Shown here in pieces: positions 57,169 to 59,102 of a stretch of 64,000 bases of DNA. The DNA is taken from contig JAJHOH010000001.1 in NCBI GenBank assembly GCA_021651055.1, positions 1,054,001 through 1,118,000 on the forward strand. Direction: 5' to 3'. Numbering within the stretch: the first letter of the stretch is position 1; the number at the start of each line of letters is the position of its first letter. Position numbers and translations under genes: made by a program. The DNA comes from Candidatus Manganitrophus morganii (lineage in GTDB: Bacteria > Nitrospirota > Nitrospiria > SBBL01 > Manganitrophaceae). The notes beneath the pieces were generated by a model, which had not been told where the DNA came from, made no database searches, and worked only from the letters and a program-made list of their open reading frames with translations.

Positions 57169-58614
57169 ATGGAACTCTCATTTCTCATACCGGATCGGCT
57201 ATTTCGCCGATCCATCTTTACTCGACTTCCCCTCTGTTTAGGGGTATTCTTATCCGTCTTCGTCGCCGCTTGCGGCGGTGGCGGCGGAGGAGGGGGGGGC
57301 ACGGATCCTCCTCTCCCGGTCATCGCCGAGATTGAAGTCTCCCCGACGGCCGTGACCATCTCAAAAACAGGTTCCCTACAGTTCAGTGCAACCGCACGGG
57401 ATGCGGACGGAACATCGATCTCCAGTGTGACGTTTACCTGGTCTTCGGACAATCCGGATATTGTCAGCATCGACGCCAACGGCCTCGCCTCCGGCATCGC
57501 GGAAGGAACGGCGACCATCACCGCCTCCGCGGATGGGGTCTCCGGAACAACGGCGGTGGAAGTGACTTTCCGCCTCTTCTCCAGCCCGACCACTTATCCT
57601 GTGGGAACCACCCCTTCAGCAGTCGCTGCCGGCGACTTTAATAATGACAGTTCCGTGGACTTAGTCGTCGCAAATGTAGACGACAACTCCATTTCACTCT
57701 TGAAAGGGATGGGGAACGGACTATTCTCGGCCGCCGAGACTTTCTCGGTCGGCGTTTTTCCTCAATCGCTTGTTATGGGACGTTTTGGGCCCGATTCATT
57801 TGACGATCTGGCCGTTGTGAATTTCGGAGATTCATCCATCTCTCTTTTCCTGGGGATTCATACCGGAATCGGCCCAACCACGGAAATTCCTTCCTCCGGA
57901 AACGGTCCCATTGCAATCGTGACAGCCGACTTCGACAACGACGGCGACCCAGACCTCGCCACCGCCAATCTCTCCACAAGCGATATTTCTTTGTTCCTCG
58001 GAAACGGAGACGGGACTTTCCAATCTCCGCTTTCTTTCCCGAGCGAAGGGAGCGGGCCCATCGCGCTTCTTGCCGCCGACCTGGATAAAGACGGAAGAAC
58101 CGATCTGGCCGTCGTGCTCGGATCAGACGACAAGGTTGCGATTTTGCTCAATGACGGCGCAAGCGGTTTTGATAGCCCGGAGCCGCCGATTTCCGTCGGA
58201 ACAGGTCCCAATGCAATTATCTCCGGAGACTGGGACAGCGATGGGAATATCGATCTGGCTGTCGTCAACAGTGTCAGTGCCGATCTGACGCTGTTGTTTG
58301 GAGATGGCGCCGGGAACTTTTCAGTCCAAACATTACCGCTCCCCGGGGGAGGACGCCCCGAATTTGCCGCAACGGGAGATTTTGACGACGACGGAAATCC
58401 CGATATTGCTGTCTCAAACAGCAACAATAATGTCATTTCGATTTTATTGAATACAGGCAACGGTCTTTTCTCCGATCCGATCCAACAATCAACCGACAAT
58501 CAGCCCCTGGCGATCGTGGCCGAAGATCTGAACAGCGATGGAACAGACGATCTGGCTGTAACCCATGCCGGGGACAACACGCTTTCCGTTTTTTTTCACG
58601 CAGATCCCAACTAA
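57169..58614 (+). CDS. Lipoprotein with BIG2 and FG-GAP/VCBS repeats
   Basis: A lipoprotein of 481 residues (lipobox FVAAC then poly-Gly). A BIG2 domain (50-135) with IAEIEVSPTAVTIS precedes about seven FG-GAP/VCBS-type blades (140-480), each with a calcium-binding DFDNDGDPDLA-type loop and a hydrophobic strand. It is a probable surface beta-propeller similar to integrin-alpha-like proteins. The ribosome site is weak. Confidence 0.8.
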   Translation: MELSFLIPDRLFRRSIFTRLPLCLGVFLSVFVAACGGGGGGGGGTDPPLPVIAEIEVSPTAVTISKTGSLQFSATARDADGTSISSVTFTWSSDNPDIVSIDANGLASGIAEGTATITASADGVSGTTAVEVTFRLFSSPTTYPVGTTPSAVAAGDFNNDSSVDLVVANVDDNSISLLKGMGNGLFSAAETFSVGVFPQSLVMGRFGPDSFDDLAVVNFGDSSISLFLGIHTGIGPTTEIPSSGNGPIAIVTADFDNDGDPDLATANLSTSDISLFLGNGDGTFQSPLSFPSEGSGPIALLAADLDKDGRTDLAVVLGSDDKVAILLNDGASGFDSPEPPISVGTGPNAIISGDWDSDGNIDLAVVNSVSADLTLLFGDGAGNFSVQTLPLPGGGRPEFAATGDFDDDGNPDIAVSNSNNNVISILLNTGNGLFSDPIQQSTDNQPLAIVAEDLNSDGTDDLAVTHAGDNTLSVFFHADPN

Positions 58615-58655: not shown

Positions 58656-58684
58656 TTGACGCAATGACATCCCCGCCGTATAGT
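58656..58684 (+). promoter_or_regulatory. Sigma-70 promoter upstream of the riboswitch
   Basis: TTGACG (58656-58661), 17-bp spacer, TATAGT (58679-58684). The start of transcription would be near 58691, so the transcript begins just before the aptamer at 58708. Confidence 0.8.
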
Positions 58685-58707: not shown

Positions 58708-58810
58708 GATGCCACCGACAAGAGCTACCCTTCTCGAAAGAGCAGGGGCGCAAAGTCCTTGACCTAAGTCTGATAAAGATAGGGTTGCAAGGATTACCGA
58801 AGCGGCTATC
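58708..58810 (+). promoter_or_regulatory. GEMM-I cyclic-dinucleotide riboswitch (A20, cGAMP-type candidate)
   Basis: P1 GATGCC/GGCTATC closes the aptamer. P2 carries CTC-GAAA-GAG with the conserved tetraloop, then GGGGCGCAAAG containing the ligand-stacking A47 equivalent. P3 pairs TCCTTG (58756-58761) with CAAGGA (58788-58793), and the 3' strand ATTACCGA contains the expected C92 position. Aligned on P2, the residue equivalent to Vc2 G20 is A (GACAAGAGC), as in Geobacter GEMM-Ib RNAs that prefer 3',3'-cGAMP. It sits between a sigma-70 promoter and an intrinsic terminator. Confidence 0.85.
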
Positions 58811-58815
58811 GCTCG

Positions 58816-58851
58816 AAGCTCATCCACAAAGGTGGTATGAGCTTTTTTTTT
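58816..58851 (+). terminator. Intrinsic terminator, riboswitch expression platform
   Basis: AAGCTCAT-CCAC pairs with GTGG-(T)-ATGAGCTT and is followed by nine T's. It starts 6 nt after the aptamer, so ligand binding can control read-through into the giant secreted protein gene. Confidence 0.9.
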
Positions 58852-58862
58852 GGGGGATGCGA

Positions 58863-59102
58863 ATGAAAACCACCAAGTCGGCGCTCACGATAAATTTAGA
58901 TCAGCAGGCGATGTGGAAGCGACACAACCGACATCATTGTGTCATGATTCCTGTTGACTGTGAGCGGGGCAACGATATACTTGATTTAGGATATACCGTT
59001 AGTAAATTTTATTCATCCGGCGGACGGAACCGGAGAACAGAAAACCCGGCACGTCGGCAAGTACGTTTGGCAAGAATTTATCAAAGGAAGGGCAATCCGT
59101 GA
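58863..59102 (+). CDS. Possible small leader ORF
   Basis: A 79-codon frame from ATG 58863 ends in a TGA that overlaps the GTG of the next gene (GTGA), which would allow translational coupling. The product is basic, has no recognised domain, and an alternative ATG at 58857 follows GGGGG. Codon use is unconvincing, so it may be just leader RNA between riboswitch and gene. Confidence 0.25.
   Translation: MKTTKSALTINLDQQAMWKRHNRHHCVMIPVDCERGNDILDLGYTVSKFYSSGGRNRRTENPARRQVRLARIYQRKGNP

Follow-up and report, generated by a model that had tools for sequence, protein, structure and literature searches.

In Geobacter, it is established how 3′,3′-cGAMP signals by way of Hypr enzymes and A20 riboswitches; for Bdellovibrio, this holds for the enzyme. 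The c-AMP-GMP (GEMM-Ib) riboswitches of Geobacter are reportedly those of Kellenberger 2015 and Nelson 2015. They combine the GEMM-I fold with an A at the G20 position, and a Hypr GGDEF protein is found in the same genome. Outside Geobacter, a cluster-3 aptamer from Desulfobacca acetoxidans, which forms a tandem with an adenosylcobalamin riboswitch and has been studied by in-line probing, represents an A-form with close relatives of the G-form (PMC9481103).

Here, we describe a riboswitch of the same kind in Candidatus Manganitrophus, a genus of manganese-oxidizing chemolithoautotrophs (PMC9040806). It lies in a 64,000-nucleotide stretch of genomic DNA, which is referred to as the window throughout. 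With the Geobacter switches it shares the fold, the A at the G20 position, and a Hypr GGDEF in the genome; it differs from them in its Nitrospirota host, in a giant secreted target without heme motifs, and in the predicted direction of the response, which is OFF rather than ON. Like the Desulfobacca aptamer, it is an A-form whose close relatives are G-forms. The explanation that we favor on balance, with some reserve, is a transcription-terminating, A20 (GEMM-Ib, cGAMP-selective) GEMM-I riboswitch, for which cGAMP made by Hypr enzymes would be the OFF signal, with a second promoter, PB, acting independently of it.

The aptamer and its selectivity base

Scanning the whole window with Rfam 15 yielded two matches above the curated cut-offs, including one to RF01051 (c-di-GMP-I) with a score of 47.2 bits and an E-value of 4.3e-6, the curated gathering score of this family being 35 bits. 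Model position 11, at which the consensus is G, aligns to A58723 with high posterior probability, and the register at this nucleotide is set by the flanking P2 pairs G58724–C58751 and C58725–G58750. Model position 11 is equivalent to G20 of Vc2, the other ligand contacts being A18, A47, and C92 (Vc2 numbering). The window bases equivalent to these three retain the consensus letters, so that the difference from Vc2 and from the RF01051 consensus lies in an A in place of the G at position 20. The aptamer, including this A, is kept in three further Manganitrophus assemblies (G002, G004, and G005), and A20 is therefore no sequencing error.

Among nine members of the aptamer's subclass, 95.7% of the cells in helices P1, P2, and P3 are paired, as compared to 34–52% in slid controls, and changes on both sides were observed in 8 of the 24 pairs. 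Both the membership in GEMM-I and the A at the G20 position, as put forward in an initial annotation of this DNA, are thus borne out, the former by the covariance search and by helix covariation, the latter by the alignment and by its recurrence in four assemblies. The window aptamer does have the lowest score among the full-length aptamers of the genome (47.2 versus 56–71 bits), as might be expected had it decayed or lost its function; given the compensatory changes and the conservation of the promoter and terminator on either side of it, this is very improbable.

Outside the genus, the aptamers most closely related to that of the window are found in family f5 (G011, G012, and G013) and in genomes G024 and G027; they display G20 and have other downstream genes. 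Within this subclass, a single base at the selectivity position therefore separates the two forms. At the G20 loci L242, L229, and L243 in family f5, the downstream gene encodes a small secreted protein that, as judged by eye, resembles spore-coat-U or fimbrial proteins. At L243 (G013), moreover, complementarity exists between the terminator arm, ACUUAGGUC, and the P3 strand, GACCUAAGU, of the locus' own aptamer, which represents another candidate antiterminator in the subclass of the window aptamer.

Hypr enzymes and the likely ligand

Hypr proteins are defined by Ser348 (GacA numbering) together with GGDE[F/Y] (eLife 2019); we counted as members proteins with Ser or Thr at GacA position 348 and GGDE[F/Y], not GGEEF. 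A PF00990 profile search of the genome returned 33 GGDEF matches. In nearly all of those typed, which leaves out three matches (L035, L038, and L043), the residue following GHxxG is Asp; in two it is Ser, accompanied by a GGDEF motif. These two, P0001 (C1:2559919-2561067, behind secA) and P0002 (C1:673007-674107), contain the motifs GHLMG-S and GHLTG-S, respectively, and both have a GAF-GGDEF domain make-up. Their best match among solved structures is 6d9m, a Geobacter Hypr GGDEF. When compared by sequence, they resemble GacA (PDB 6d9m, PMC6456294) in the Ser that replaces the Asp following GHxxG, in the GGDEF motif, and in the GAF and GGDEF domains; unlike in GacA, a response-receiver domain was not found in either protein. 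We regard P0001 and P0002 as candidate cGAMP synthases. The initial annotation would have counted the absence of a Hypr-type GGDEF or other cGAMP synthase from the genome against its cGAMP proposal; two Hypr-type GGDEF proteins are present.

The nearest named relatives of the Hypr protein come from Candidatus Manganitrophaceae and Candidatus Manganitrophus sp. GAC4. In the latter (G004), the P0001 orthologue (C1:1813052-1814205; L166/L184) is split into two overlapping pieces with one TGA, and is either broken or misassembled; the second Hypr family member of this assembly, L069, retains the signature.

In a sample of 31 genomes from close relatives, 23 encode a P0001 orthologue, and all those read combine Ser with GGDEF. 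We extended the comparison to 246 Nitrospirota genomes, using E-value cut-offs of 1e-75 or better for P0001 and 1e-60 or better for P0002. Hypr orthologues were found in 80 of these genomes, A20 aptamer patterns in 47, and G20 patterns in 53. Fifty-nine orthologue sequences were read at these cut-offs, and Ser with GGDE[FY] was present in all 58 that were typed. Hypr orthologues are present in 33 of the 47 A20 genomes versus 47 of the 199 others (Fisher p 4e-9), and, among the carriers of GEMM-I patterns, in 33 of 47 A20 genomes versus 8 of 32 with G20 only (p 1e-4); both p-values are nominal because the genomes are related. Exceptions are the nine genomes of family f18 and the close relative G030, which have A20 aptamers and no orthologue of P0001 or P0002. 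In one f18 genome (G035), two GGDEF proteins (L368 and L372) have Ser after GHxxG but a GGEEF motif, a combination described as inactive in GacA and as not found in nature (eLife 2019). According to the published rule, GGDE[F/Y] is the only motif of natural enzymes with Ser; these two proteins do not follow it.

The two Hypr-type GGDEF proteins and the tracking of A20 with Hypr enzymes lend independent support to cGAMP as the most likely ligand of the window aptamer. Should the aptamer respond mainly to c-di-GMP despite its A20, or to both messengers, this would agree with the view of position 20 as a selectivity factor and not a hard filter (PMC9262584), and with the A20 aptamer of Desulfobacca, in which the A raises the affinity for cGAMP and only slightly weakens the binding of c-di-GMP (PMC9481103). 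It would also agree with the canonical Asp of most GGDEF proteins in the genome, with the G20 of the close relatives in family f5, and with the A20 aptamers of f18 and G030, which lack the two orthologues. Such a response is nevertheless unlikely, since A20 is kept in all four Manganitrophus assemblies, whose genomes contain G20 switches as well, and since A20 tracks the Hypr enzymes across the phylum.

Expression platform and control of the downstream gene

The features of the leader and of the gene behind it are listed in Table 1. As the initial annotation had proposed, the aptamer is preceded by a promoter (PA) and followed by an intrinsic terminator, both of which are conserved in the three other assemblies. 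The terminator hairpin, 58815–58845, with its U-run has a folding energy of −17.5 kcal/mol (z −5.5), which no shuffled sequence equals. The 79-aa ORF was considered as a coupled upstream gene and ruled out, as neither its frame nor its start is conserved in the four Manganitrophus assemblies. Upstream of the leader, positions 57169–58614 encode a 481-aa lipoprotein-like secreted protein in which FG-GAP-like repeats can be recognized by eye.

Table 1. Features of the riboswitch leader and the gene downstream (window coordinates).
Feature	Position	Strand	Remarks
Leader promoter PA, TTGACG-17-TATAGT	58656..58684	+	Hexamers kept in four Manganitrophus assemblies
GEMM-I aptamer	58708..58810	+	P1, 58708-58713 with 58804-58810; RF01051 core, 58713-58801
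Antiterminator strand 1, AUGCCACC	58709..58716	+	Predicted; partner 58831-58838; overlaps P1 5′ strand
Antiterminator strand 2, GAGCU	58722..58726	+	Predicted; partner 58817-58821; includes A20 and P2
A at Vc2 G20 ligand-selectivity position	58723..58723	+	RF01051 alignment; kept in G002, G004, G005
Intrinsic transcription terminator (expression platform)	58815..58851	+	Folding energy; conserved in four assemblies
79-aa leader ORF, probably no gene	58863..59102	+	Frame not conserved
Inverted repeat CACAA-N9-TTGTG, possible operator	58923..58941		A short distance 5′ of PB; ACAA/TTGTG in four assemblies
Second promoter PB, TTGACT-16-TATACT	58954..58981	+	3′ of terminator, 5′ of giant gene; kept in four assemblies
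Giant secreted protein gene, 2487 aa	59099..64000, continuing beyond the window to G000:C1:1120562	+	GTG start at 59099

In the window, the terminator does not begin until 58815, whereas P1 has ended by 58811; the two are therefore mutually compatible, and an ON mechanism based on competition between P1 and the terminator, which do not overlap, is unsupported.

Before the terminator is completed, the unconstrained best fold of the leader is a nested antiterminator, not the aptamer, both in the window and in the orthologues from G002 and G005. In these three distinct orthologues, this predicted fold lies 9–10 kcal/mol below the aptamer form; it would disrupt P1 and P2, A20 included, and sequester both arms of the terminator. 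In the full-length leader, the antiterminator comes within about 1–3 kcal/mol of the best fold, which contains the terminator. As the ligand-bound aptamer would exclude the antiterminator, binding is predicted to favor termination, and the modeling suggests that the ligand here is most likely an OFF signal for transcription. The prediction is suggestive only, because the energy gap is equaled by 22 of 500 shuffled tails; the antiterminator is without covariation. The sequence of events would then be as follows. The Hypr enzymes would make 3′,3′-cGAMP, the putative ligand of the window aptamer, and its binding would stabilize P1 and P2. The stabilized helices would release both terminator arms from the nested antiterminator, and the terminator that could then form would end read-through from PA into the gene for the 2487-aa secreted protein.

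A switch in which the ligand promotes read-through would be in line with Geobacter, where deletion of gacA lowered the transcription of genes behind GEMM-Ib switches. It would also be in line with the other A20 switches of the Manganitrophus genome, in which the 3′ end of the aptamer doubles as the 5′ arm of the terminator; judging from this terminator layout, these look like ON switches. We consider an ON response of the window switch rather improbable, however, in view of the compatibility of its P1 with the terminator and of an antiterminator that is predicted to exclude P1 and P2 instead.

The 2487-aa protein has a signal-like N terminus, and its sole Pfam domain is one fn3 domain; no heme motif was found in it. 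Its orthologues in G004 and G002 are 91–95% identical. With this single domain and no heme motif, the description of the protein as filament-like in the initial annotation is not supported. The notion that the riboswitch alone controls the protein is weakened by the conserved promoter PB past the terminator. Because PB lies between the terminator and the giant gene, control by the riboswitch would be partial, covering one of two likely transcripts, and PB would supply riboswitch-independent expression. Most of the transcription of the giant gene may in fact originate from PB.

The PB hexamers and the inverted repeat are kept in the four assemblies although the spacer and the 79-aa ORF vary. 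This conservation would also be expected if the riboswitch hardly affected the giant protein, with the gene being driven by PB, perhaps regulated by a factor at the CACAA-N9-TTGTG repeat, and with the leader RNA being a short attenuated transcript. PA, the aptamer, and the terminator are conserved just as well, however, which suggests that they are important for the downstream gene and makes so minor a role of the riboswitch doubtful. We retain partial OFF control by the riboswitch as the preferred reading.

Other switches in the genome and the Nitrospirota pathway

The genome contains 11 GEMM-I matches, three with G20 (L001, L004, and L005) and eight with A20 (L002, L003, and L006–L011). The targets of the switches outside the window are mostly secreted proteins, several of them with fibronectin-III repeats. 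Four of the A20 aptamers (L008–L011; G000:C1:3245511, 603577, 3250517, and 1017949) have an insert of about 100 nt in the P3 loop, which belongs to a dispersed G-rich repeat family that also occurs elsewhere in the genome. These four do not reach the cut-off of RF01051; their match is to RF03167, with a long insert.

At G000:C1:1017732-1018071 (L004/L009), a G20 aptamer with its terminator is followed by an A20 aptamer with its terminator, and then by the gene for a secreted protein with FN3 repeats. This G20-then-A20 arrangement is conserved in the four Manganitrophus assemblies and present in family f7; further instances involve L214, L221, L208, L244, and L212. Such tandems are possible two-messenger gates for c-di-GMP and cGAMP, a pairing that is absent from the consulted entries of the tandem-riboswitch table in PMC9481103. 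Since G20 and A20 aptamers occur side by side in the same genomes, and even in series, the separation of two messengers by one scaffold becomes directly testable.

The window switch itself is a GEMM-I riboswitch and, as such, of a known kind; its wider interest lies in the Nitrospirota pathway, because the pathway as a whole appears to run through this phylum. We found no earlier report of a pairing of Hypr enzymes with A20 aptamers across Nitrospirota in a search that did not extend to the founding 2015 PNAS papers or the 2016 Hypr survey, so an earlier mention is possible. Judging from the window switch and the two Hypr-type enzymes of its genome, the Nitrospirota are probably a further phylum through which the cGAMP pathway, best known from Geobacter, extends. 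Taken together, a phylum-wide cGAMP network comprising A20 GEMM-I riboswitches together with two families of Hypr GGDEF proteins can be tentatively proposed, although as a whole it falls short of being probable: in Manganitrophus, cGAMP would turn surface proteins with FN3 repeats ON and the giant secreted protein OFF, and serial G20-then-A20 switches would act as two-messenger gates at some surface-protein genes. The joint occurrence of enzymes and aptamers across Nitrospirota, conserved and co-distributed, would by itself bring the cGAMP pathway into a new phylum and link it to control of the cell surface, not of cytochromes.
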